Positions 19,721 through 36,318 of a stretch of 37,102 bases of DNA are shown one piece after another. This DNA comes from a virus: positions 1 through 37,102 of IMG/VR virus record IMGVR_UViG_3300045051_001513, one strand, 5' to 3'. Below the pieces are notes generated by a model. That model was not told the origin of the DNA and ran no database searches. It worked only from the letters and a program-made list of their open reading frames with translations. Each line of letters opens with the position of its first letter. The first letter of the stretch is position 1. Position numbers and translations under genes: made by a program.

Positions 19721-21250
19721 TCAGACCTGGTCAGCGATATCGGATCGACCGGATAGGCCAGCCACGAGCAGGGCCTGTGCCATCAGCTGCGCCAGGCGAT
19801 CGTCGGAGATCTCCGGCACCAGCGCGACCAGGCCATCGGCGACGTCCTGCAGCGTGGTGGCCCGCGCGACGAGCGCGTCGATCGCCGCCATCAGAGGATC
19901 CGACCCGGTGCTGAGCATCGTGCCGAGCTGGTCGGTCAGATCGTCAGCGGTGTCGCGATCCGCCCCTTCGGCCGGCAGCGTCGATCGCTGGCGGGCAGCA
20001 CGGCCCGCCTCGGCGAAGAGGCGTGCGAGGTCATTGTCCTGGCCAGGCGCCGGCTGCGCGGCTTCAACCCGCGGCTCCCAGCCCTCGCCATAGGTCTCGG
20101 TGACATAGTCCAGCGTCGGGCGGAACCCGAGCGCATAGACCTTGGTGTCGCGCTCTGCCTGCGCAGCCAGGTCCTTCGGCTCCGACACGTCCCACCACAG
20201 GCGCGGCAGCGGCGCACCTGGCATGTTCACGTCGACGATCCAGCGCACCAGGCTGTCATTCAGCGTCTGCGACAGAAGGTCCGCGTCGGCCTTTGTGATC
20301 TCGAGCCGAACCTCGTTTTGCACATCGCCCAGCGCGCGCGATCCACCGGTGCCGTTGCTGGTGGTGAGCGTCTCGCCAAGCACGACCTTGCTGATCGCCT
20401 CGTCCATGTAGCGGGCGAGCTTCTCATAGCTGTCGAACGAGCCGCTGCGCTTCGCCTCGATCAGCTCGATCACCATGCCTTCGGGCACGGTCACGCCCGC
20501 ATCGGTTGCGATTGCCTGCAGCGCCTCGAGGAGCTTCTGCTGCTCGCTCTCCGGGGTGCCCGACGGATACTTCCCCAGCGCGGTGGGCTGGCCGAACTTC
20601 TCCAGGCCGCCGAGCCAGAAAGCCACACCCTGGCGCTTGAAGAACACGGGCCAGAACAGGCTGTGGCCGAGGCCAAGGCCCCAGGGGTTATCGTAGCGTC
20701 CGCCGAAGCGGTGAACGATCATCTTCCGCGCTGGCAGCCTGATGCCTTCGAGCGGCGAGCTGCGAGTCAGCATCCGAAGCGAGGGCTGCAGCACCCCGGC
20801 GGCATCTGCCTCCGCGACGAAGGTGAAGCGGCGCGGGTCGCGGTGCTTCAACGCGGCCGGCAGGATGCCCTCCGCCGTCGCGGCCCAGATCACCTCGACG
20901 ATTGAGATGCCCTTCATCACGGCGTCGAGCAGGTCATGCACCAGGCGCTCGAGGCCACGGTTGCCGAAGGCGCGCGAGACAAGCTCGGCCGCGGCCGCGG
21001 CTCGCGCGTCGTTATCCGCAGCAGGCTCGACTTCCCAGCGACGGCCGACCAGGGCAAGGCGCCGTTTCTGCAGCACGGTCGCGACCTGGTCATCACGCTC
21101 GAGCTCGTCGTAGAGCCACAGCCCCTTGCCGGCACCGCGGCTCGTGAGCGTCGAGTCCTCATGAGCGATGCGATTGCCGAACAGCATGCGGTTCGGATCG
21201 GTCGCGATGGTCGCGATCTCGTTCCGCAGTTCGGTGGGAAGGCGCGCCAT
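19721..21250 (-). CDS. Portal protein (DUF935, Mu gp29-like)
   Basis: This 509-residue protein matches DUF935/gp29, the portal family of Mu-like phages that forms the dodecameric DNA gate and nucleates head assembly. Visible marks are the N-terminal TDPNRMLF, YDELERDDQVATVLQKRRLAL, LLDAVMKGISIVEVIWA and GLGHSLFWPVFFKR, then ETLTTSNGTGGSRALGDVQ near residue 300. GGAGG six bases before ATG 21250 sets the start. It lies between terminase and MuF, the standard order. The C-terminal 120 residues are Ala- and Asp-rich and probably flexible. Confidence 0.94.
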   Translation of the reverse strand: MARLPTELRNEIATIATDPNRMLFGNRIAHEDSTLTSRGAGKGLWLYDELERDDQVATVLQKRRLALVGRRWEVEPAADNDARAAAAAELVSRAFGNRGLERLVHDLLDAVMKGISIVEVIWAATAEGILPAALKHRDPRRFTFVAEADAAGVLQPSLRMLTRSSPLEGIRLPARKMIVHRFGGRYDNPWGLGLGHSLFWPVFFKRQGVAFWLGGLEKFGQPTALGKYPSGTPESEQQKLLEALQAIATDAGVTVPEGMVIELIEAKRSGSFDSYEKLARYMDEAISKVVLGETLTTSNGTGGSRALGDVQNEVRLEITKADADLLSQTLNDSLVRWIVDVNMPGAPLPRLWWDVSEPKDLAAQAERDTKVYALGFRPTLDYVTETYGEGWEPRVEAAQPAPGQDNDLARLFAEAGRAARQRSTLPAEGADRDTADDLTDQLGTMLSTGSDPLMAAIDALVARATTLQDVADGLVALVPEISDDRLAQLMAQALLVAGLSGRSDIADQV

Positions 21251-26161: not shown

Positions 26162-26545
26162 TCAGCTCCGCTCTTCAGCCTCGCACTCTGTTGCCCATTT
26201 GCTGAAGTTCCCAAGGCCGTAAAGATCACCCCAGATCGACTTCAGCGTCGTACGGTGCTGGAGCAGTGTCGTGCCATCATCGCGACCGATGAACGTGATC
26301 TCCCACATCGGCGTCGGCGCCATGCCCGGCATGAGGGTCATCAGCATCGCGCGGCGCTCCCGCTCCCGAACCACGGGGGTAAGGAGGAAGCCGAAGGGCT
26401 GCTGCTTCTCCGTGAAGCAGGCGAGCATCTCCTTCCAGTCGGCACGGGCCTCTGCCGTGCCAACCGGCTCCGACTCCCGGATGGCGCCAACGCTCTGGCA
26501 CCCCGCCAGCAGTAGCCCGGCTAGAATGGTCGCTCTGATGCTCAT
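26162..26545 (-). CDS. Prophage lipoprotein of unknown function
   Basis: This 127-residue protein has a lipoprotein signal: MSIRATILAGLLLAGC with the lipobox L-A-G-C and Cys16 as the modified residue. Gln follows at +2, which suggests sorting to the outer membrane. The mature part of about 110 residues is soluble, with WKEMLACFTEKQQPFGF and MWEITFIGRDDGTTLLQHRT, and contains two more cysteines. ATG 26545 overlaps the Mor gene as ATGA. It could be an envelope-altering (superinfection exclusion) protein or part of lysis; no family is recognised. Confidence 0.75.
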   Translation of the reverse strand: MSIRATILAGLLLAGCQSVGAIRESEPVGTAEARADWKEMLACFTEKQQPFGFLLTPVVRERERRAMLMTLMPGMAPTPMWEITFIGRDDGTTLLQHRTTLKSIWGDLYGLGNFSKWATECEAEERS

Positions 26546-26946
26546 CCTGCTCTCCTGTCGCTGAACAACTCGCGCTGGCGATCATCGCGCAGCTTCGCCT
26601 TCACCGCATGCACTGTTCGCACATGCAGCCCCGTCGCGGCGGCGATGTCGTTCGCCGTCCGCCCGGCGGCCGTCATCTCCGCGATCATTCGGCGCCGCAG
26701 CCGCACGTCGTCGCGTGGACCTTTCGGGATGACGATGCGCTCCAGCTTGTCGTGGCGCTCGATGAGGAAGCGCAGCACCTTCACGCCGAGCTGCCGTGCG
26801 ATCGGATGATCTGCGTCCGCCTCGGCTGGCAAGCGCAGGTACTGCCCGCCCCAGCCGCGCGCCAGCGTGAGCGCCGCGTCCTCGCCGAACGCGTCGGCGA
26901 CGTCGCGCAGCAGCGCGGGCAGCCAGAGGCGTTCAGGTGGTCGCAT
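26542..26946 (-). CDS. mor: Mor-family middle/late transcription activator
   Basis: This 134-residue protein fits the Mor/C activator family of Mu. The N-terminal dimer part has LPALLRDVADAFGEDAALTLARGW followed by GGQYLRLP, written here as residues 9-40, and a second unit with LIERHDKLERIVIPKG. The C-terminal helix-turn-helix is TANDIAAATGLHVRTVHAVK. Mor binds upstream of middle or late promoters and recruits RNA polymerase. It ends the early operon core and is coupled to GemA by TGATG. No separate C-type gene is seen, so this one may control the late operon directly. Confidence 0.92.
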   Translation of the reverse strand: MRPPERLWLPALLRDVADAFGEDAALTLARGWGGQYLRLPAEADADHPIARQLGVKVLRFLIERHDKLERIVIPKGPRDDVRLRRRMIAEMTAAGRTANDIAAATGLHVRTVHAVKAKLRDDRQRELFSDRRAG

Positions 26947-27380
26947 CAGTCGAAAACGACAGCGCCGACGCGCCGCGCCCAGCCCTTGAGAGCTTCGACG
27001 ATCCGCACCTTCGCAGGTCCATCAGCCCAGCGCAGGCTGTCGATGCCCGTCTGCCGCTTCACGAACGCGTCCAGCGACTGCTCGGATGGGTTCTCTATTG
27101 CCCCGGCATCGGCGAGCGCGAGCCACAGCGCGCGGATCTTCTTCGAGAGCGGATCTGACGGCAGGCTGCGCTGCCCCGCGCCCTTGCCTGGCGTGCGCGG
27201 TGCGCCGCGCTTGTGCAGGGCATCGAGCACGCGGCCGAGCTCGCGGCCGTCCATCGCGCGCAGGCTCGCCTTGCCCGTCGTTGCCTCCAGGAAGCCGCGC
27301 CAGGCGACGTCATCATCGAGCCCAGCGACGCGCTTGCGGCAGGCGTGGATCGCGCCCGCGAGGCGGGCGGGAATGCTCAC
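26946..27380 (-). CDS. gemA: GemA-like regulatory protein (DUF1018)
   Basis: This 144-residue protein matches GemA/DUF1018. It has IHACRKRVAGLDDDVAWRGFL, then TGKASLRAMDGRELGRVLDAL, and after a basic linker SKKIRALWLALADAGAI with FVKRQTGIDSLRW. The two-part helical layout with the final G-x-D-x-L-R-W block is the family hallmark. GemA of Mu influences host gene expression and DNA gyrase-related functions in the early phase. GTG 27380 overlaps the preceding stop as GTGA, which I chose as start. Confidence 0.92.
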   Translation of the reverse strand: MSIPARLAGAIHACRKRVAGLDDDVAWRGFLEATTGKASLRAMDGRELGRVLDALHKRGAPRTPGKGAGQRSLPSDPLSKKIRALWLALADAGAIENPSEQSLDAFVKRQTGIDSLRWADGPAKVRIVEALKGWARRVGAVVFD

Positions 27381-27934
27381 GGCTGCACCTGGTCGACCAC
27401 GTCGACCGTCTGGACGCCCAAGGCGCGCGCGAGAGGGCCGCGGTAGTGCTGCCGCACCCAGTCGGCCCGGAAGCGGGTTCCAGCCACCAGAAGCGCGCTG
27501 CGGCCTTCGGTGAGGGAGACGACGCTCAGCGGCGCGATCCAGCTCCGGAACTCTGCGGCGCTGATGCCCCGTGCCTGGAAGGCTGGCCACCATGGATGGT
27601 TCACCTGATCTGACGCTGAAATTGACGCGTCAGATGCCGTCACAGTGGTGAACGGAGCGTAATCGAGGAACCGACTCTGCCGCAGCCACGTGGCGAGGTG
27701 CGGCACGTACATCGGGTCGATCTTCATCGTGCGGATCTCGGCGGCGAAGGCCTCGCCGGCCTCGGCGATCCGCGCCGGATCGTGCTCGCGACACACGAGG
27801 CGGAACGCGGCCTCGGCCTGAGCACGGGGGTTCGGGCGGCGTGGCGGATAGGCAGCCCATAGACGATCGAAGCCGGCCTTAAGCGGCCCCTTCAGCTGCC
27901 CTGAAGCGCCGAACAGGGGGATCTGGCGCGCCAT
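27377..27934 (-). CDS. Replication-type protein with DnaA domain I-like C-terminus
   Basis: This 185-residue protein has two parts. Residues 21-95 (FDRLWAAYPPRRPNPRAQAE, then YVPHLATWLRQSRFLDY) match the segment common at the end of phage replication initiators and replisome organisers. Residues 115-175 resemble DnaA domain I: ISAAEFRSWIAPLSVV followed by GTRFRADWVRQHYRGPLARAL, with the expected EF..WI.PL and RF..DWV...Y pattern. DnaA domain I binds helicase and accessory proteins. No AAA+ domain is present. It could recruit host DnaB to the transposition intermediate; this is inferred. Confidence 0.8.
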   Translation of the reverse strand: MARQIPLFGASGQLKGPLKAGFDRLWAAYPPRRPNPRAQAEAAFRLVCREHDPARIAEAGEAFAAEIRTMKIDPMYVPHLATWLRQSRFLDYAPFTTVTASDASISASDQVNHPWWPAFQARGISAAEFRSWIAPLSVVSLTEGRSALLVAGTRFRADWVRQHYRGPLARALGVQTVDVVDQVQP

Positions 27935-28470
27935 CAGATGTGCCTCTCGCAGTCGGGGCAGCGCGAGCCCGCGCGCAGTGCCGAGGCCGGGCCTTGCCAG
28001 CCGCATGCGCACTGGAGCTGCGGCTCGATCGGCGTCATTGCCGCGATCCATTCGGCGCGGTGGGCGTGAAGCGAGCAGCGGAGCAGCGCGAGCGCAGGGG
28101 TGCTCGCCAGCGCCTCGAACCACAGCAGCGCAGGGTCGCCTTCGCGGCGCCGGTTATGGCACCAGGCTTGCGCGTTCCCGCCGCGCTGGCCGGCAGACCA
28201 ATCCCATCCGTGCGGCACCACCTGGCGCGCGCAGTCGATCCTCTTCGACGCGCGCGGCAGGGGCAGAGGCGTGCGGGAGAGAGGGCTCAGTGCTGTCCAG
28301 GCCTGGCGCAGCTCGCAGCCCTGCCGCGTGACTCGCCAGCCAAGAGCGGCGAACACACGGGCGTCGAGGTCGCGCGATGCGGCGGCACCGTCCTCGAGCT
28401 CAACGATGACGCGCTCGATCTCGCCGAGGCTAGGGCGGATGCGCAGCGGGACGGTGGCGAGCGCCGTCAT
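27934..28470 (-). CDS. Phage ABA sandwich-like protein with zinc ribbon end
   Basis: This 178-residue protein has a core with SRDLDARVFAALGWRV, RQVVPHGWDWSAG and STPALALLRCSLHAHRAEWI, the pattern of phage ABA sandwich domain proteins. The C-terminus reads CACGWQG and then CPDC, four cysteines spaced as a zinc ribbon. The combination suggests nucleic-acid contact. ATG 28470 overlaps the previous gene as ATGA. The function of this family in phages is unknown. Confidence 0.65.
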   Translation of the reverse strand: MTALATVPLRIRPSLGEIERVIVELEDGAAASRDLDARVFAALGWRVTRQGCELRQAWTALSPLSRTPLPLPRASKRIDCARQVVPHGWDWSAGQRGGNAQAWCHNRRREGDPALLWFEALASTPALALLRCSLHAHRAEWIAAMTPIEPQLQCACGWQGPASALRAGSRCPDCERHI

Positions 28471-29027
28471 GCCTGGCCGTCCGGCACGAGGATGAACTGC
28501 GTGAGGTCGAGCATCTTGCGACGGTTGTTCACCAGCCGGATCTCATGATCCGTCAGCGGCCCCATCGCGTTGATGCGCACGCCGTGATCCAGACCCCAGC
28601 GTCGGATCGTCGCCTGATCGGCGCGTCCACCCGGCAGCGCCGGTGGAACTGGAAGAGGAAGTGCGGGATCGGGAGCCTTGGCCGGAATGCTCACCTGCGC
28701 GGTGGTCTGCGAGGTGCCGGGGCCAGCGTTGATCCTGCTCGGCGGACTGGCGGCCGCCGGCTCGGACAGGTTCCCTTGGTATGCTGCGACGTCCCGCGGC
28801 GAGGCGTCGACGCCGGAGCGTGACCCCTCTGCGCCACCCGGAGTTGCCCCGGTGTGCTTGGCGCGCGGAGCCCGCGGCCGATACTGCGCCTTCATCGGCA
28901 CGATCGGCGCGGCAGGCCCCGCGATCTCTTCGACAGGGCGCGCCGCGAGAGCGGGCATCGGCTGTGCGGCGAGCAGCCGCGCAACCTCCCGCCTGATCTC
29001 GCGGCGAAGGATCGCCCTGCTGATCAT
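28467..29027 (-). CDS. Hypothetical protein sharing a C-terminal module with the DnaA-like protein
   Basis: This 186-residue protein has a basic N-terminal helix (ISRAILRREIRREVARLLAA), a long Pro/Ala-rich linker, and a C-terminal 50-residue module beginning ADQATIRRWGLDHGVRINA and ending LDLTQFILVP. Nearly the same module ends the DnaA domain IV-like protein at 30417-30971. The module looks like a helix-turn-helix. Function is unknown; sharing a module with a replication-type protein suggests common partners or DNA sites. Confidence 0.72.
   Translation of the reverse strand: MISRAILRREIRREVARLLAAQPMPALAARPVEEIAGPAAPIVPMKAQYRPRAPRAKHTGATPGGAEGSRSGVDASPRDVAAYQGNLSEPAAASPPSRINAGPGTSQTTAQVSIPAKAPDPALPLPVPPALPGGRADQATIRRWGLDHGVRINAMGPLTDHEIRLVNNRRKMLDLTQFILVPDGQA
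28489..28619 (-). repeat. Duplicated module, copy A
   Basis: This 131-base segment aligns without gaps to 30439-30569 at about 105 of 131 positions (hand count). It encodes the C-terminal module of the gene at 28467-29027. Copy B lies two kilobases away in the same direction. Confidence 0.85.
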
Positions 29028-29143
29028 TTCGGCGTCGCCCGCACGATTGCCAGCGCGACGACGCGAAGCTCGAGCGGCAGCGTCAGCAGCATGCGGCGGA
29101 TTTGCCGCAGCCGACGACGACGCTGCCATGCCCTGAACGACAT
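29024..29143 (-). CDS. Tiny basic/hydrophobic protein
   Basis: This 39-residue reading frame begins MSFRAWQRRRRLRQIRRM and ends in a hydrophobic stretch LLTLPLELRVVALAIV. Its start shares a base with the Gam stop (TGATG) and its stop overlaps the next start (ATGA), the same coupling used by its neighbours, which supports it as a real gene despite its size. The arginine-rich head and hydrophobic tail suggest membrane or nucleic acid contact. Confidence 0.62.
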   Translation of the reverse strand: MSFRAWQRRRRLRQIRRMLLTLPLELRVVALAIVRATPK

Positions 29144-29667
29144 CACGCGCCACCGCCTGACAGCGGCAGGGCGACCGGCTGGACGAAGAAGTCCTCGCCG
29201 ACGCTGCCGACAGTGACGCCGGGCACCTTCGCGGCGACCTCCGGCTCGGCGAGGAGGGCCTGCTTGTCGATCTCCTCCTTCGTGCGGATGAAGCGCGCGA
29301 GGCCGAGGGACTTCAGCGTCTCCATCACCGCGCCGATGCTTGCGATGCGCACGCTCGGCGGCCGCAGGCGCCAGCCGATCTCGCCACCCGACATGGCGAC
29401 AGTCTTCCGGCCGCCCGCGCACAACGCCTCACGGTTCGCCTCGGCCCACACCTGCAGGCCCTTCGTCATCGCCGCGATCGCCGCGTTGATCGGTGCGGCC
29501 TCGGCTTCGGCCTTCGCCTTCAGCGCTGCCACCTGCTCATCCAGTGCGGCCTGGACGAGCTCGGCAGAGCGCACGAGATCGCCGATCTGCTTGAGCCACT
29601 CGTTGGCCTCATTCGCATCGCGCGGCACGGGCACATCGACCGCGCGAGACTTCATGCGCTTGCTCAC
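29143..29667 (-). CDS. gam: Host nuclease inhibitor Gam (Mu Gam-like)
   Basis: This 174-residue protein is a Mu Gam homologue that binds DNA ends and protects linear phage DNA from RecBCD-type exonucleases, like Ku. It has ANEWLKQIGDLVRSAELVQ and a long helix, AALKAKAEAEAAPINAAI, then the beta part AMSGGEIGWRLRPPSVRI and LGLARFIRTKEEIDKQAL. Its C-terminal end GVTVGSVGEDFFVQPV is also family-like. ATG 29667 overlaps the previous gene. It lies in the usual early region. Confidence 0.93.
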   Translation of the reverse strand: MSKRMKSRAVDVPVPRDANEANEWLKQIGDLVRSAELVQAALDEQVAALKAKAEAEAAPINAAIAAMTKGLQVWAEANREALCAGGRKTVAMSGGEIGWRLRPPSVRIASIGAVMETLKSLGLARFIRTKEEIDKQALLAEPEVAAKVPGVTVGSVGEDFFVQPVALPLSGGGA

Positions 29668-29927
29668 AACCCCTCCTTTCCCCGCGCTGCGGCGAGGCTG
29701 ATCTGGTTCTTGATCCGGTCTCGGAACTTCGCGATCGCGGCCGCCTGCGTCTCGCCAGCAGCGATCGGCAGCAGGTACGTCTCCTTGTCATCAGACACCT
29801 TCGCGTGCCGGGTGAGCGCAGCGCTGAGGGTGAAGAGATCGCCGTGCTGGATGATCAGCTGCGCGCCGGCGGGCATATGCCAGCCGAGGCGGATGACGCC
29901 GTTCGGCATGCAATAGGCGAGCGCCAT
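29664..29927 (-). CDS. Small early protein, paralogue of 30145-30423
   Basis: This 87-residue protein has two strands with IRLGWHMPAGAQLIIQHGD, then ALTRHAKVSDDKETYLLPIA and a C-terminal helix with AAAIAKFRDRIKNQI. The protein at 30145-30423 shows the same layout: PAG after a strand, an ALAR-like helix, a T-x-L-x-P strand and a final F-R-x-R helix. The two are probably duplicates. TGATG coupling marks the start. No function is known. Confidence 0.72.
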   Translation of the reverse strand: MALAYCMPNGVIRLGWHMPAGAQLIIQHGDLFTLSAALTRHAKVSDDKETYLLPIAAGETQAAAIAKFRDRIKNQISLAAARGKEGL

Positions 29928-30145
29928 CAGAGCGCTCCCTTCAGCGTCGCCAGGACGGCTTCCATGGCCTCGATTTCGGCCTGCGCCTTGGTTGGCTTCA
30001 TGCGGCCGTCCTGCACCCATCGTGGGTAGACGCGGCGGCGCATCTCGATCTCGCGCGTGACGCACGCGATCTGCTCAGCGATCGGGACGACGCGACGTCC
30101 GAAATCGAGGCCGGCCGCATCGCCGGCTGCGCCTGGCGCCGGCAT
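29927..30145 (-). CDS. Small coiled-coil early protein
   Basis: This 72-residue protein carries GRRVVPIAEQIACVTREIEMRRRVYPRW, here given as helix at residues 16-43, and a second helix KAQAEIEAMEAVLATLKG. The heptad-like pattern suggests a short coiled coil. It starts at ATG 30145 in TGATG. It lies between the two small paralogues in the early operon. No family is recognised. Confidence 0.68.
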   Translation of the reverse strand: MPAPGAAGDAAGLDFGRRVVPIAEQIACVTREIEMRRRVYPRWVQDGRMKPTKAQAEIEAMEAVLATLKGAL

Positions 30146-30423
30146 CAGCGCGCCGCCTTTCGTTCCGCGACTTCGCGGTCGATGTGCTTCGTCACGCGCT
30201 CGCGGAACTGCTGGAGGGCCGCCATTGCCTCGGCATGCGATGCGGCCTCTGGCATGCCAGGCACGAGCCAGGTGCGATTGTCGTAGGCAAGCCGAGCCAG
30301 GCTCTGGATCGCCCCCATGAGCAATCCGCCCGGGCCGATCGTAACGAGATAGTTGCCGGCAGGCTGACGTGGACCGACTGTCAGCCGCCCCTGCAGACTG
30401 CAACTCATCTTCGGCATCAGCAT
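30145..30423 (-). CDS. Small early protein, paralogue of 29664-29927
   Basis: This 92-residue protein starts at ATG 30423, or at ATG 30417 which forms TGATG with the preceding stop. It has GRLTVGPRQPAGNYLVTI, then SLARLAYDNRTWLVPGMPEA and the helix AMAALQQFRERVTKHI. The same order of elements is seen in the gene at 29664-29927, so the pair looks like an old duplication. Its role is unknown. Confidence 0.72.
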   Translation of the reverse strand: MLMPKMSCSLQGRLTVGPRQPAGNYLVTIGPGGLLMGAIQSLARLAYDNRTWLVPGMPEAASHAEAMAALQQFRERVTKHIDREVAERKAAR

Positions 30424-30971
30424 GCCCCCGTCGTTGCAAGGATGAAGGGTGCGAGGTCGAGCAGTCGGCGGCGGTTGTTCACCAGCGCCATGTCGATCTC
30501 GGTCAGCGGCCCGACAGCGTTGATCCGCACGCCGTGGTCCAACCCCCAGCGTCGGACCGTCGCCTGATCAGCCAAGCCGCCGCGCCACGCGTCGAGCTGC
30601 GCGGCGATTGGTGCTGGTTTCGATGCGGCCTCGCTCGCCTGGTGATCAGGCTGGCTCAGGACCTGAGCTTCGATCGCCGCGACGTGTCTCGCGAAGCTTG
30701 GATCGCGCGCGATCCGCTCGCGCACCCGATCGACGCCGTGCATCACCGTCGTGTGGTCGCGATGCATCGCGCGCGCGATCTGCGGGAACGACTGCAGCGT
30801 GCAGTGCCGCGCCAGGAACATCGCGACCTGGCGCGGCTCCATGATGCCGTCGCCGCGCCGCGTGCTCAGGATGTCGGCCGGCGAGACGCCGTAGGCCTCG
30901 CTGACGACGCGGACCACGTGAGCAACGCTAGCGACGCGCAGGTGCAGTGCCTCAGGGCGACGGTCACTCAT
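30417..30971 (-). CDS. DnaA domain IV-like DNA-binding protein
   Basis: This 184-residue protein contains the DNA-binding domain IV of DnaA without the ATPase. Residues 17-85 run from VVRVVSEAYGVSPADILSTR through QVAMFLARHCTLQSFPQIAR to HRDHTTVMHGVDRVRERI, where DHTTV is the motif that contacts DnaA boxes. A linker follows, then a C-terminal module (ADQATVRRWGLDHGVRINAV) shared with the gene at 28467-29027. It may occupy DnaA boxes in the host or phage and affect replication initiation. ATG 30971 overlaps the previous gene by eight bases. Confidence 0.88.
   Translation of the reverse strand: MSDRRPEALHLRVASVAHVVRVVSEAYGVSPADILSTRRGDGIMEPRQVAMFLARHCTLQSFPQIARAMHRDHTTVMHGVDRVRERIARDPSFARHVAAIEAQVLSQPDHQASEAASKPAPIAAQLDAWRGGLADQATVRRWGLDHGVRINAVGPLTEIDMALVNNRRRLLDLAPFILATTGAC
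30439..30569 (-). repeat. Duplicated module, copy B
   Basis: This 131-base segment aligns without gaps with 28489-28619 at about 80 percent (hand count) and encodes the C-terminal module of the DnaA domain IV-like protein. Confidence 0.85.
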
Positions 30972-31161
30972 GCGACTTCGCCTTCCGTGAGGAAGGGGCT
31001 GCCAGTCTGGCCGCGGTGAACTTGAGGTCTGCGCGAGACAGGCCGGCAGCTCGGGCGGCGGCGTATATCCGCGCCAGCTCTGCATCGAGCGCCTTCTTCT
31101 TGGCCTCGCACTCGGCGACGCGCTTAGCGAGAAGCTCAGCGGTGTGGCGACGATCACTCAT
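30964..31161 (-). CDS. Short DUF2312/GapR-like protein
   Basis: This 65-residue protein starts at ATG 31161 after GGAGG with five bases spacing. LLAKRVAECEAKKKALDAEL followed by IYAAARAAGLSRADLKFTAARL follows the DUF2312 pattern (helix with paired acidic/basic residues, then Y-x-x-A-x-x-x-G and a helix). It lacks the usual C-terminal helix and the GHNS start. It may be a truncated relative of the gene just before it. The match is weak. Confidence 0.62.
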   Translation of the reverse strand: MSDRRHTAELLAKRVAECEAKKKALDAELARIYAAARAAGLSRADLKFTAARLAAPSSRKAKSHE

Positions 31162-31477
31162 CGTCGCCTCCGCCTCGTGCGTGCACGACGCGCGTAGCAC
31201 GTGCCGTGCCATCTTCTGGAGAACGGCCCAGAACCTTGAGAACCCGCTCCATCTCGGCGGTCTTCTCGTTGGCCTTGTCCGGGTCCTTCCGATACTTCAG
31301 CGCGCCGCGGAGCGCGTCAGGCGGGAAGCCGAGGCGCTTCGCTTCCTTGTAGGCGTCGCTCTTCTCGGCGTTCAGGCCGGAGATCTCTTCATCGAGCTGC
31401 TCGATGCGTGAGGCGAGGCCGCGCAACGCCTTCTCGGCGGTCGCAGCGCTGTTGTGGCCAGGGCCCGGCTTGCTCAC
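31154..31477 (-). CDS. DUF2312 protein, GapR-like DNA-binding
   Basis: This 107-residue protein starts at GTG 31477 with GGAGGT five bases upstream, which outweighs the longer frame from 31678. It begins SKPGPGHNSAATAEKALR with the family's GHNS motif, followed by LASRIEQLDEEISGLNAEK, DAYKEAKRLGFPPDALRGAL and KYRKDPDKANEKTAEMERVL. GapR of Caulobacter is a nucleoid protein that binds overtwisted DNA ahead of replication and stimulates topoisomerases. A phage copy may help DNA replication by transposition; this is inferred. Confidence 0.88.
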   Translation of the reverse strand: MSKPGPGHNSAATAEKALRGLASRIEQLDEEISGLNAEKSDAYKEAKRLGFPPDALRGALKYRKDPDKANEKTAEMERVLKVLGRSPEDGTARATRVVHARGGGDDE

Positions 31478-31710
31478 AGAGCACCTCCGCTGCGGAGGCG
31501 ACGCAGGGCCTCGAGGTCGACCACACCGTCGGGAACGACCTGGCGCCGCGCGCCGATCGGCACGACCTGGCGCTCGAGCTGCTGCGCGTCCTCCACCAGG
31601 TCCGTGGCGATCGCCTCGATCGTGCGGAATGCCTGCGCGGCGTCGGGCACACCTTTCTCGCGATAGGCCTTGCACCACTTCGCGAGGTGGCGCAGCTGCT
31701 CACTCAACAT
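31474..31710 (-). CDS. Hypothetical early protein
   Basis: This 78-residue protein begins MLSEQLRHLAKWCKAYREKG and has helices DAAQAFRTIEAIATDLVEDA, then a short basic strand segment and DLEALRRLRSG. AAGGAG nine bases before ATG 31710 supports the start. It overlaps the HTH gene by eleven bases and the DUF2312 gene as GTGA. It is a common type of small helical early protein; no function is known. Confidence 0.7.
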   Translation of the reverse strand: MLSEQLRHLAKWCKAYREKGVPDAAQAFRTIEAIATDLVEDAQQLERQVVPIGARRQVVPDGVVDLEALRRLRSGGAL

Positions 31711-32089: not shown

Positions 32090-32721
32090 GCTGCGCCTCC
32101 GACCTCAGGCGCGCCGGCATGCCAGGTGATCTGCTTCAGGTTCGGATCGAAAACCGCCTTCAGGCGCGTGATCTGTGGCGCATCAGGCCCGGTACTCTTT
32201 AGGAACCGGTACGTCGCTGTAACGCCTTTGCGCCCTCGCTTCGCAGGGACCTGGACCCGGAGGTAGCCAGCGCGGGCAAGGAACCGCACGTAGGTTTCCG
32301 CCTCGTGCTCCGAGATGACGCCACCATCGACACTCGAAGCGACCGCAAGGTCGCGCGGCGTGAAGACCTTCAGCATCTTCATCGTGCGCCAGAGGCGATC
32401 TCGGCCGCTGCCCTGCGTGGGGACCGTGCCGTCAGCGGCAAGCCGTGGCGGCGTGGGTCCGACGTCCCGCACCAGGACCCATGTCGCGCCGCCTGCAGGC
32501 CCCTTCTCCTCGCTGCGCGCCAGGATGCCAGCCGCCTCCAACGCTGCGACGTAGCTGCTGACCGTGCGCACCGGGACGTAGCTGATCTGGCCGATGCGCG
32601 TGCGCGTCATCGCGGCGCCTGGCGTCTCGGAGAGCTTCCGGATCGCGGCCCAGATGGCCGGGCGGCCGGTGAGCACGACCTCAGCAGCGCGGCGTGTGAC
32701 GGGCTTCACGCCTCGCGCCAT
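32086..32721 (-). CDS. Winged-helix DNA-binding protein
   Basis: This 211-residue protein has two winged-helix-like units. The first has VLTGRPAIWAAIRKLSETPG and TRIGQISYVPVRTVSSYVAAL then LEAAGILARSEEKG. The second has RLWRTMKMLKVFTPRDLAVA and EHEAETYVRFLARAGYLRV. A beta wing follows, KRGRKGVTATYRFLKS. ATG 32721 forms TGATG with the MuB stop. Similar proteins follow MuB in B3-like phages. It probably regulates or assists replication; partner sites are unknown. Confidence 0.78.
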   Translation of the reverse strand: MARGVKPVTRRAAEVVLTGRPAIWAAIRKLSETPGAAMTRTRIGQISYVPVRTVSSYVAALEAAGILARSEEKGPAGGATWVLVRDVGPTPPRLAADGTVPTQGSGRDRLWRTMKMLKVFTPRDLAVASSVDGGVISEHEAETYVRFLARAGYLRVQVPAKRGRKGVTATYRFLKSTGPDAPQITRLKAVFDPNLKQITWHAGAPEVGGAA

Positions 32722-33500
32722 CAGCGCGCACCCCGCTTCGCCGCAGACCACGCGTCATCGCGCGGCTGCACCTGGCCGGTGTAGAGAGGCCGCCCCGCCC
32801 ACCAGGCTGCGTCGATCGCCGCCGGCTGCTCAGTACAGGCAGCATCACGGATCAGGTCGAGGTTGATGCAGACGCGGCGCGCGCCGCCTTTCGCTGCATC
32901 GACCACCGCCTGGAGAAGATCGTCTGCCAGCGTCAGCCCTGCGCAGTACAGCCGCGACAGCTCGCGTGTGTCGTGAAGATCCACCGGCATCGCCGCGACC
33001 CATCTCAGCACCCGGTTGTGCACGCGCTCCACAGCGCGGAGCTTGGCTGGCAGCCGCTCCTCGCCGATCAGCGCGATCGCCGCGCCGCTGCTCTCGTGGA
33101 TGTCACGCACGATCTCGATCGCGCCGGCGGCCAGCACGTGATCGGCCTCGTCCAGGATGAGCGGCCGGCCCGACGCCCGCAGCTCGTCGGCGATCTGCGA
33201 CGACATCTCGTACACGCGCTGGGCTGGCTCGATGCCCATCTCGTGCAGGATCGCGCGGCAGAGAGCGCGCTTCGTCCAGGAGCTGCGCGCCTCTACGTAG
33301 TGGGCGCGGTGCAAGTTCGCGGACAACGTCGCGGCGAAGGTCTTTCCGTAGCCTGACGGGCCGTGGAAGACCACGAGCCCAGGCAGGTGCGGCGCGCGTG
33401 CCAATGCGGCGGTAAGGCCTTCGTGAAAGAGGGTGACGTTTCGCAACCTGGCGATGGTGCCAACGTGCGCAGCGTGGAAATCGGAATTCTCGGTGCTCAT
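32721..33500 (-). CDS. Transposition target ATPase MuB-like
   Basis: This 259-residue AAA+ protein should bind target DNA, activate the transposase and give target immunity. Walker A is GPSGYGKT at 47-54 and Walker B ILDEAD at 115-120; the sensor region follows with GAAIALIGEERLPAKL. The short N-terminal part is typical of B3-like B proteins rather than Mu B. ATG 33500 has GGAG five bases upstream. It lies right after the transposase gene, as expected. Confidence 0.92.
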   Translation of the reverse strand: MSTENSDFHAAHVGTIARLRNVTLFHEGLTAALARAPHLPGLVVFHGPSGYGKTFAATLSANLHRAHYVEARSSWTKRALCRAILHEMGIEPAQRVYEMSSQIADELRASGRPLILDEADHVLAAGAIEIVRDIHESSGAAIALIGEERLPAKLRAVERVHNRVLRWVAAMPVDLHDTRELSRLYCAGLTLADDLLQAVVDAAKGGARRVCINLDLIRDAACTEQPAAIDAAWWAGRPLYTGQVQPRDDAWSAAKRGAR

Positions 33501-33512
33501 CACGTCTCCGGG

Positions 33513-35834
33513 TTAGCTGGCGTTGGGGGAAGCGGCATGAGTGGTTGCGCGAGATCGGTAGTGACCGCGGCGGATGTCGATGCCGCGTGCTTGCGAGAGG
33601 GCGCGCAGGAACTCGGTTGTGGTCTCGTAGGCCTCGAACCAGGCGCGCTCGGCCTCAGGGATCACGGCGCCGCTGTTCAGGGCATCCCAGGCGGCCAGGC
33701 CGCGCGCGACGCGGGCGTTGCGTTCGGCCCGCGGATCGCGCGCCTCCTCCGCGCGCCTGCGCGATGCCAGGGCGACGAGCTGCGCATCGCGCCGCTCGTC
33801 TGCCGGGGTGCGCGCCGGCGCCACCGGCGCTTCCTCCGCTCGCGAAGCTCGGCCCGCCTCGTGGAGAGCCGGGGTATCGTGACGCTCGCTGTTCCTTGGG
33901 AAGGCGATGACGGAACTGGCCGCCCGGCGTGCAACGATGTCGCGAACGAGCTGATCAGGCTCAGGCAGCACGCGACGCCGCTTGTCCTTCAGCGCGCTGA
34001 TGTTTAGGCCGCGCAATGTCTTCGTCTGACGGCGGGCCTCCTCGGCGATCTCCTCGCGCGAGATGCCGGTGCGCTCTGGATCCTCCGCGATGCACACGAA
34101 CTCGCGGGCACCGTCGAACACGTAGATGCGGCCGGCATCGGTCGGGTCCTGCCGGCACTCGACCGTCTCGCCAACGAGGTCGCCGAGCTGCGGTGCAATG
34201 AACAGGCCGTTCTCGACCCTGATGCCCTTCTTGGTGACCGTCCGCATGCCATTCCCGCCGGCAAGCGGGGCGAGGAGCACGTCGAGCGCGCGCACGTCGT
34301 CGATCCGCCTGACGGCTCCCGTCCATCCAAGCGCCCTCAGTGCGGGTGTCGTTGAGATGCCGTCGTGCGGCCTGTTGTGGTAACCGGCGCACCAGTTGTC
34401 GCAGAAGGCCTGCAGCTCCTGAGCCGTCAGCGAAGCCTGTATCGGCCTGGCCCCACTGTTGCGGTCGAAGAGACGCGAGATGAAGCTCTTGCGGCTCTCG
34501 ATCTTCTGGCGGCTGGCCACGTCATGGCCGACATAGCCGCCGAGGAGCTTCAGAAGCCCATGTGAGAACGTCTTGAAGAAGCGCTCAATGAACGGCTTCT
34601 GTTCCGGCGCGCCTACCGTCGCGCGCCAGTGCTCGATCTCCAGCCGGGCCAGCACGCGTTGCACATGCTCGCTGACGAAGTCGCTGCCGTTGTCGGTATG
34701 AACCGCTTCGGGGACGCCGTACTCGATCAGGCCTGCGCGAAGCAGCGCTGCGACAGCGGGTCCGCTTGACGTGCGGTGAACGCGCATCATCGCGCGGCGA
34801 GAGAATACGTCGATGAAGGCGACGATCGTGTAGCGGAGACCGTCGGCGAGCATGATGTCTGCCTTGGTGGCGTCGAACTCCCAGCGCTGATTGAGGCGAG
34901 TGACCTGCTCGTCAGCCTTGCCGAATGCCGGGCGGAACTTCCCCTTGTGCGCATCCGGGCTTTCGAGGAACGCAAAGTCGCGCTTGTTCTTCCTCTTCCA
35001 GTCCGCGAGCCAGCGCTGGCATGCCCTCTCGCTCGGCGCCCTAAGGCCGAGCTCGCTGGCGCGCAGATCAATCGCGGCATTAAGATCGGCGCCGGAGAGA
35101 TGCGGCCACTGCACGATCATCGCTTCGGCGAGGTCGAGCAGCTCGGGCGTGGCGCTGATCGTCGCCTCGCGCGGCTTGTAGGCACCGGCCAAAGCGATCG
35201 GCCCCTGCGTGCGGAGCAGACGCTCCCAGGTCAGCAGGCTCTTCACACAGAAGCTCGGGATCGCGGCGCGAACCTGCTCCGGAATGTCGAAGGCGCCGTC
35301 CGCCCATTCCTGGGCGAAGACCTCCGCGCGCTGACATCCTCCGATGCCTCGCCAACGGCGGAACAGGTCAACGATCCGGAGCCGAGCATCTGCGCGTACC
35401 GCCTGCTTCGGCGGCAGCGCATCCAGCTGTGGCCCCTGATGGAGCCGGAGGTTCCACTCCTCAGGTGAGCACAGCTGAGTGGCTTGGCCGGCGAGGCGAA
35501 CGTCAGGCCAATAGTGATCGACGCGGCGGCGGATTGCCTGTCGAAGCGCGGGCGGCAGGCTGTAGAGGTTCCAGACATAGGTGCCGGCGTGACCACCAAC
35601 ACCCGGCACGACCGTGTAGAGCGCGCCGACGCCCTTCAGATGCCTGACTACATGCGCCGCGCGGGCCGGCAAGCCCTCTACACGCAAAGCCAGCAGATCT
35701 GCGGCCGTGAACTCGGAGAAAAGGCGCTGACCGCTATCGCCGCGCGCGTACGTGCTGATCTGTGGCGGCACGTCGGGGGGAGGCGTGAGCATGCTCCCAG
35801 ATGCGCCATGGCGCAGCTCGCTGAGCTGGCTCAC
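33513..35834 (-). CDS. Transposase MuA-like (DDE integrase fold)
   Basis: This 773-residue protein cuts and joins phage ends during integration and replicative transposition. The N-terminal part resembles the MuA DNA-binding domains (FTAADLLALRVEGLPARAAH). The catalytic triad is Asp321 in RWEFDATKAD, Asp381 in AVHTDNGSDF, and Glu417 in KPFIERFFKTF, spaced as in MuA. The C-terminal part is charged and long, likely the MuB-contacting region. The start is GTG 35834 (GTGA overlap) or ATG 35792. Confidence 0.95.
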   Translation of the reverse strand: MSQLSELRHGASGSMLTPPPDVPPQISTYARGDSGQRLFSEFTAADLLALRVEGLPARAAHVVRHLKGVGALYTVVPGVGGHAGTYVWNLYSLPPALRQAIRRRVDHYWPDVRLAGQATQLCSPEEWNLRLHQGPQLDALPPKQAVRADARLRIVDLFRRWRGIGGCQRAEVFAQEWADGAFDIPEQVRAAIPSFCVKSLLTWERLLRTQGPIALAGAYKPREATISATPELLDLAEAMIVQWPHLSGADLNAAIDLRASELGLRAPSERACQRWLADWKRKNKRDFAFLESPDAHKGKFRPAFGKADEQVTRLNQRWEFDATKADIMLADGLRYTIVAFIDVFSRRAMMRVHRTSSGPAVAALLRAGLIEYGVPEAVHTDNGSDFVSEHVQRVLARLEIEHWRATVGAPEQKPFIERFFKTFSHGLLKLLGGYVGHDVASRQKIESRKSFISRLFDRNSGARPIQASLTAQELQAFCDNWCAGYHNRPHDGISTTPALRALGWTGAVRRIDDVRALDVLLAPLAGGNGMRTVTKKGIRVENGLFIAPQLGDLVGETVECRQDPTDAGRIYVFDGAREFVCIAEDPERTGISREEIAEEARRQTKTLRGLNISALKDKRRRVLPEPDQLVRDIVARRAASSVIAFPRNSERHDTPALHEAGRASRAEEAPVAPARTPADERRDAQLVALASRRRAEEARDPRAERNARVARGLAAWDALNSGAVIPEAERAWFEAYETTTEFLRALSQARGIDIRRGHYRSRATTHAASPNAS

Positions 35835-36055
35835 GCGCCGTCACCCGGAGCTGGACTGTTGTCGTTGGCGAGAAGCTCGTGCTGGCGACGCAATACAAAC
35901 TCGTCGCGCGCCTGCTCCATGAGCTCTGGAACCATGTTGTCGATGTCGTCGAGCAATAGGAAAAATGCCCACTCGACCCTGGCGAGAGCGCGGTAGGCGT
36001 CGAGTAGCGAGCACTCGATTTCGGCACGCAGGCCGGCGGCTACGATGCTCTCCAT
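35831..36055 (-). CDS. Small acidic early protein
   Basis: This 74-residue protein starts at ATG 36055 (TGATG with the Ner stop). It is helical, with LRAEIECSLLDAYRALARVEW, here residues 9-29, then FFLLLDDIDNMVPELMEQARDE. The acidic helix may mediate contacts. It lies between Ner and the transposase; other Mu-like phages also have a small gene here. No family is recognised. Confidence 0.68.
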   Translation of the reverse strand: MESIVAAGLRAEIECSLLDAYRALARVEWAFFLLLDDIDNMVPELMEQARDEFVLRRQHELLANDNSPAPGDGA

Positions 36056-36318
36056 CAAGCGGCAAGCTCCCTTGCGCGCCGCTGGCGCTCGCGCTTCGCC
36101 CAACGCGTTGGCCAGATCACATCTGGAGGCACGCCGATCGCGGCAGCGATCTCACGCTCAACTCGCGGATATGGAACCCGAAGCGCGTGCCAGGCTGTTG
36201 ACGGCTTAATCCCGAGGCGCCTGGCGACCTCGGAGATGCTGAGGCTCCGCTTCTTCAGCGCAGCGACGACATCTGCCGGATGCCAATCGGCGAGCGGGGC
36301 GACGCCATCATCGGTCAT
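36055..36318 (-). CDS. ner: Ner-like early transcription regulator
   Basis: This 87-residue protein has the Ner/Nlp family pattern: DWHPADVVAALKKRSLSISE, then VARRLGIKPSTAWHALR, and after PYPRVEREIAAAIGVPPDV the end IWPTRW, which is nearly the consensus of the family. Ner represses the early promoter and repressor promoter during the lytic cycle. It is the first gene of the early operon and is divergent from the repressor. ATG 36318 lies 43 bases from the repressor ATG. Confidence 0.95.
   Translation of the reverse strand: MTDDGVAPLADWHPADVVAALKKRSLSISEVARRLGIKPSTAWHALRVPYPRVEREIAAAIGVPPDVIWPTRWAKRERQRRARELAA

Follow-up and report, generated by a model that had tools for sequence, protein, structure and literature searches.

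Replication of phage Mu in Escherichia coli follows strand transfer and proceeds via PriA, DnaT, DnaC and DnaB (PMC3325207). In Caulobacter, DnaB is loaded by DciA, a protein which has a DnaA-domain-I-like domain (PMC9825169), and in E. coli DnaA the residues Glu21 and Phe46 of domain I are the contacts with DnaB (PMC5448010). Trp6 of DnaA domain I is the residue of self-association. The window investigated here is the entire IMG/VR virus record IMGVR_UViG_3300045051_001513 (37,102 bases), which derives from a Mu-like phage. Two of its early proteins each carry one part of DnaA: P0001 (27377..27934, minus strand, 185 amino acids) ends in a DnaA domain I, and P0002 (30417..30971, minus strand, 184 amino acids) consists of a DnaA domain IV standing alone, to which a further module is added at the C-terminus. 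A previous sequence-only reading of this DNA had noticed both parts and had joined them into a split DnaA. Judged from sequence, they are better read as two separate early proteins, and the chances are about even that P0001 serves as a phage primosome adaptor and P0002 as an independent DNA-binding regulator or competitor.

P0001 is composed of two domains. The Pfam profile search detected DnaA_N (PF11638) at residues 124-170 (27425..27565, minus strand) with E=1.4e-9 and 38 bits, against a cut-off of 24.6 bits; neither an AAA+ domain nor a domain IV was matched in Pfam, and the score of the whole protein with the NCBIfam DnaA equivalog model was 13.4 bits (cut-off 343.9). A structure model was built with three closely related sequences, its N-terminal half being unreliable. 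The C-terminal domain was modelled with a predicted local distance difference test score (pLDDT) of about 70-86 and showed the order alpha-alpha-beta-beta-alpha-beta, as in DnaA domain I. When this domain was compared with solved structures by Foldseek, the top four PDB matches were all DnaA domain I, with probabilities of 0.98-1.00; the matches included 4tps, 2e0g and 2wp0, and the species were Bacillus subtilis, E. coli and Helicobacter pylori. As profile and fold matches agree, the observation is real and far beyond chance. The equivalents of E. coli Glu21 and Phe46 are E128 and F155. The first half of P0001, which the sequence-only reading had missed, is a helical domain at residues 17-109 (27608..27886, minus strand). 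It matched phrog_270 (replication initiation protein, E=2.7e-12) and phrog_9327 (primosomal protein, E=8.8e-8), and the profile searches placed it among replication initiators, primosomal proteins and helicase loaders of the DnaD type. No helix-turn-helix (HTH) match was obtained for P0001 with Pfam or PHROG, the N-terminal winged-helix origin-binding domain of the initiators being missing, and a sequence search of the PDB with the N-terminal domain gave nothing convincing. Comparison with the related viral contig L070 yielded a ratio of non-synonymous to synonymous substitution rates (dN/dS) of 0.21 at a dS of about 1.0, indicating purifying selection.

Two-domain members of the P0001 family were found in seven lineages, and nine sequences were compared. 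The window clade consists of the window, an Elioraea prophage (L074, 98% identical) and the viral contig L070 (72%). The other lineages are L175 (45% identity), L176/L177 (39%), L179 (32%), L152 (29%), L264 and L150/L151 (31-35%), the last of which matches the IMG/VR entries L178/L180. Pfam DnaA_N was recovered separately in each member, with E values from 1.4e-9 to 2.4e-3; L152 was the weakest, and three members scored under the curated cut-off. The position of Phe46 is aromatic in 8/9 members (seven phenylalanines and one tyrosine, with an isoleucine in the ninth), the position of Glu21 is acidic in seven of the nine, and Trp25 is invariant. The window clade retains a tryptophan of the Trp6 type, as do L175 and L176 in the form LW; other lineages have lost it. 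MuB was present in every P0001 lineage with a readable transposition region; none was found within the stretch read of L150/L151. Wherever the surroundings were read, the P0001 gene adjoins GemA, a Mor-like gene or both: within the window clade its neighbours are GemA and Mor, and in L150, L151 and L152 it is next to a Mor-like gene.

When the alignment of the P0001 family was run against viral contigs, 80 loci were obtained, seven of which (representing five lineages) matched across both domains, the remainder being mostly matches to the N-terminal domain alone. Forty-four of these N-domain-only proteins were compared with the families; all matched phrog_270, phrog_9327 and phrog_9474, and 16 of them also carried an HTH_36 winged-helix domain; DnaA_N was absent among the 25 listed of the 27 Pfam families found in these proteins, the two others being one-member families. 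Since all 44 match initiator families, the N-terminal domain of P0001 corresponds to the C-terminal domain of lambda O and DnaD-like initiators, and many phage initiators carry such a domain at their C-terminus or close to it. In the viral contigs L211 (6983-8420) and L229 (6967-8327), in which no MuB was matched, the gene of a stand-alone domain IV protein was observed immediately before an initiator gene with the P0001-type N-terminal domain. No tblastn match was obtained in the GenBank phage collection for P0001, or for its N-terminal domain alone at E up to 1. The first 20 kb of phage RcapMu contain neither the P0001 nor the P0002 family, and what RcapMu encodes between GemA and Mor is an unrelated protein.

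In P0002, Bac_DnaA_C (PF08299) was detected at residues 17-83 (30723..30923, minus strand) with E=2.4e-22 and 79 bits (cut-off 31.5), and the DHTTV motif is present. The structure model superimposed on 1j1v with a target-normalised TM-score of 0.94 and a root-mean-square deviation of 0.9 Å, and the nearest solved structures were all DnaA domain IV. Pfam showed neither an AAA+ domain nor a domain I, and the DnaA equivalog score was 81.1 bits (cut-off 343.9). The descriptive part of the sequence-only reading was thus borne out: both families were recovered above their cut-offs, the single-protein models showed a domain I fold for P0001 and a domain IV fold for P0002, domain III is lacking in both proteins, and the two genes belong to one early block on the minus strand. 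P0002 keeps the equivalents of E. coli R399, R407, Q408, D433, H434, T435 and T436, while the positions of R401 and R405 are acidic. In E. coli DnaA these residues contact the DnaA box, as seen in the 1j1v structure. Some relatives of P0002 are altered at contact positions (Q408 to H and T436 to S in L070, H434 to R in L175). Phages commonly carry stand-alone domain IV proteins. One scan gave 67 IMG/VR loci, and for 66 of them (all except L018) an open reading frame (ORF) of 81-239 amino acids was assigned. Bradyrhizobium phages that are not Mu-like in appearance also carry such proteins, annotated as hypothetical.

The C-terminal module of P0002 (residues 131-184; 30420..30581, minus strand) is shared with the early protein P0003 (28467..29153, minus strand), a relation that had likewise been missed. 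It comprises about 50 residues with the pattern DQAT[VI]RRWGLDHGVRIN...VNNRR and was modelled as beta-helix-loop-helix-beta, with a pLDDT of about 84-91 over most of its length. The copy in P0003 lies at about 28476-28640 and is 69% identical over 55 residues; in L070 the module is carried by the P0003 relative only. Conservation is strong (dN/dS 0.07 against L074), and neither P0003 nor the shared module matched any Pfam or PHROG family. The module looks like a small helix-loop-helix element and may resemble the C-terminal domain of Lsr2. P0002 would act independently of P0001, as an early DNA-binding regulator or as a competitor of host DnaA. A GapR-like gene was considered as a partner of domain IV and set aside, as it is similarly frequent in loci without domain IV (5/22) and with it (13/75).

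For P0001, helicase recruitment through DnaA domain I is still the best explanation, and this part of the earlier interpretation stood. More specifically, some alphaproteobacterial Mu-like phages might use a recruiter of their own, composed of the C-terminal half of an origin-type initiator and DnaA domain I, to start transposition-dependent replication in place of the PriA-DnaT-DnaC step, a proposal we regard as tentative and somewhat doubtful. Strand transfer by MuA would first make a fork; P0001 would then sit at this fork, or on the host loader or primosome, via its N-terminal domain, and would dock host DnaB via the Glu21/Phe46 face of domain I. It would thereby take the role in Mu replication held in E. 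coli by DnaT and DnaC. P0001 would have no need of an origin-binding domain, as strand transfer itself supplies the forks of a transposing phage. Such an adaptor would suit hosts with DciA as the loader and no DnaT found. The Elioraea metagenome-assembled genome containing the prophage L074 gave a match to DciA and none to DnaT; among the control genomes DnaT was found in E. coli only.

Several points weigh against this interpretation of the two proteins. P0001 was lacking in 17 of 19 MuB loci of the same Mu-like class and therefore is not essential for Mu-type replication. The role ascribed to the N-terminal domain follows family labels; this domain was modelled poorly (pLDDT about 36-51) and is not covered by any structure. 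That DnaA domain I contacts DnaB in alphaproteobacteria as it does in E. coli is an assumption made by analogy, and the Elioraea genome may be incomplete, so that absence of DnaT from the host is not proven. Finally, P0001 and domain IV may be weakly associated: domain IV was present in 3/7 P0001 lineages and in 3/21 loci without P0001 (Fisher p=0.14), in a comparison of loci that had not been picked for domain IV and of which several among the 21 are short fragments.

That P0001 and P0002 are halves of a split DnaA-like initiator, meeting on DnaA boxes and loading the helicase at a phage origin, would accord with their location in one early block and with their co-occurrence in three lineages. 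These three, the window clade, L175 and L176/L177, are the only ones in which both proteins were found. In the other four P0001 lineages (L179, L264, L152 and L150/L151) domain IV was not seen within the stretches that were read; conversely, six Mu-like loci (L017, L019, L021, L075, L162 and L166) carry domain IV and lack P0001, and none of the 50 IMG/VR records that encode domain IV and were tested for DnaA_N contained it. The sequence-only reading had suggested that the two proteins jointly link DnaA boxes to helicase loading, or else are separate decoys of host DnaA. The joint action was not supported, given their independent inheritance, the completeness of P0001 with its own non-DnaA half, and the scan for boxes. 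No TTATNCACA box occurs in the phage, and a single TTTTGCACA was found at 20316, outside the early region, against 0.12 expected for TTWTNCACA. DnaA boxes were not enriched in domain IV phages either, with 19 occurrences of TTATNCACA observed and 17.1 expected. Furthermore, identity to the Elioraea prophage L074 is 98.8% for P0001 and 85% for P0002, a sharp difference suggesting that each gene belongs to a recombination block of its own. A split DnaA was rejected on the independent distribution and the lack of boxes in the phage; taken together with the differing recombination blocks, they make it very unlikely.

P0001 might also be directed against the host. Its domain I would compete with host DnaA for DnaB or a DiaA-like partner, or would cap DnaA by dimerisation of domain I; initiation on the chromosome would stop and helicase would be freed for the phage. 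There are precedents, since DiaA, DnaB and the prophage protein YfdR compete for the Phe46 face (PMC4776307, PMC5448010) and lambda P blocks host DnaA while loading DnaB (PMC4776307). Retention of the Trp6-type tryptophan in the window clade, L175 and L176 would fit such a function, but its loss from the other lineages would not, and a pure decoy has no need of the initiator domain carried by all nine members. An anti-host role of P0001 is rather improbable. A decoy function is more readily imagined for P0002, which, judged from its residues, may compete with host DnaA on chromosomal DnaA boxes of the TTATCCACA type, rather than act as a transcription factor at promoters of phage and host. The residues contacting the bases of the box are kept, domains I-III are missing, and since the phage lacks canonical boxes, the target would mainly be the chromosome of the host. 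The acidic residues at the positions of R401 and R405 argue against it, and the changes in L070 and L175 imply that the sequence recognised may differ from the DnaA box; we consider this decoy function plausible, although slightly short of an even chance. It is scarcely credible that the DnaA_N match of P0001 arose by chance or reflects a DciA-type protein. DciA (8a3v) was the next Foldseek match after DnaA domain I, and its fold is DnaA-domain-I-like. The DciA family PF05258, however, gave no match to P0001 at E up to 1, as against the E value of 1.4e-9 for DnaA_N. A separate profile, made mostly from alphaproteobacterial DnaA domain I with two plasmid RepA tails added, found P0001 at about E=8e-15 (Z=1000) and, across all scanned loci, ranked P0001-family proteins only.

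The early genes of the phage are all on the minus strand and are ordered from right to left. P0001 and P0002 lie in one block with MuA, MuB, Gam, GemA and Mor. In this order a Ner-like HTH protein (36055-36318) is followed by the MuA-like transposase (33513..35834; PF09299 and PF00665, phrog_310 with E=2.6e-86) and the MuB-like ATPase (32721..33503; phrog_296, DNA transposition protein, E=9.7e-59). Two phage regulators separate MuB from the gene of the GapR-like DNA-binding protein (31154..31678; PF10073, E=1.6e-10). Several small ORFs are located between P0002 and the Mu Gam-like end protection protein (29143..29667; PF07352, E=9.8e-35), after which come P0003 and, directly upstream of P0001, a small ORF (27934..28470) with a C-terminal, zinc-ribbon-like CxC...CPxC motif. 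The stop codon of this ORF overlaps the ATG of P0001 in an ATGA junction. The ORF is kept in L074 (98%) and L070 (70%) and gave no family match; it is a possible candidate for a partner of P0001. P0001 is followed by GemA (26946..27380; PF06252, E=3.7e-32) and by a Mor-like activator (26542..26946), which was assigned from a PF08765 match under the cut-off (E=1.6e-4) and from its location after GemA. In comparison with the Elioraea prophage L074, a mosaic boundary was observed at about 30100-31150. The proteins from there to GemA/Mor are mostly 92-99% identical, Gam showing 98-99%, and those on the MuA side are 56-88% identical, with 78% for GapR.

Neither component of P0001 is a new kind of domain. 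Its combination of domains and the link to transposable phages were not found in the literature searched (open-licence full texts), in which phage proteins with a stand-alone domain IV likewise appear uncharacterised; a paper that lists Bac_DnaA_C together with phage (PMC6813254) offered no passage on DnaA of use here. The N-terminal domain corresponds to the C-terminal domain of the lambda O, HTH_36 and DUF1376 initiators (phrog_270, phrog_9327 and phrog_9474). Unlike these initiators, P0001 has no N-terminal DNA-binding domain, adds a DnaA domain I and occurs in a transposable phage. Sequence, predicted fold and helicase-contact residues of its second domain are those of DnaA domain I (PF11638), but in P0001 it is separated from domains III and IV and joined to the end of an unrelated domain, and Trp6 is not universal. 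DciA resembles the C-terminal domain of P0001 in fold and in the proposed DnaB contact (PMC9825169), whereas P0001 has no PF05258 match and its C-terminal domain is nearer to DnaA. YfdR of prophage CPS-53 is also phage-derived and acts at the interface of DnaA domain I and DnaB (PMC4776307); it binds domain I, while P0001 contains one. P0002 has domain IV and DHTTV in common with the stand-alone domain IV proteins of phages and alphaproteobacteria described by the NCBIfam PRK06030 models. It differs from them in scoring below the cut-offs and in the added module, otherwise seen only in the P0003-type protein.

Six plasmid-type RepA proteins of Acetobacteraceae (L114:1431-2744, L115:2449-3777 and L116-L119) were observed to end in a DnaA_N-like domain. 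The three that were checked in Pfam all belong to PF04796; two of them exceed the DnaA_N cut-off and the third falls just short of it. These proteins carry an independent DnaA domain I tail on a replication protein that is not DnaA; they differ from P0001 in having a RepA_C initiator body and a length of about 430 amino acids, with no visible kinship to the N-terminal domain of P0001. For Mu-like phages in bacteria that lack DnaT and DnaC, helicase loading cannot be explained by plainly carrying over the pathway of E. coli, and the P0001 family offers a small and testable candidate with a named contact residue. On two occasions or more, DnaA domain I has become a detachable tail of another replication protein, namely P0001 in phages and RepA in plasmids, which bears on the evolution of helicase recruitment.

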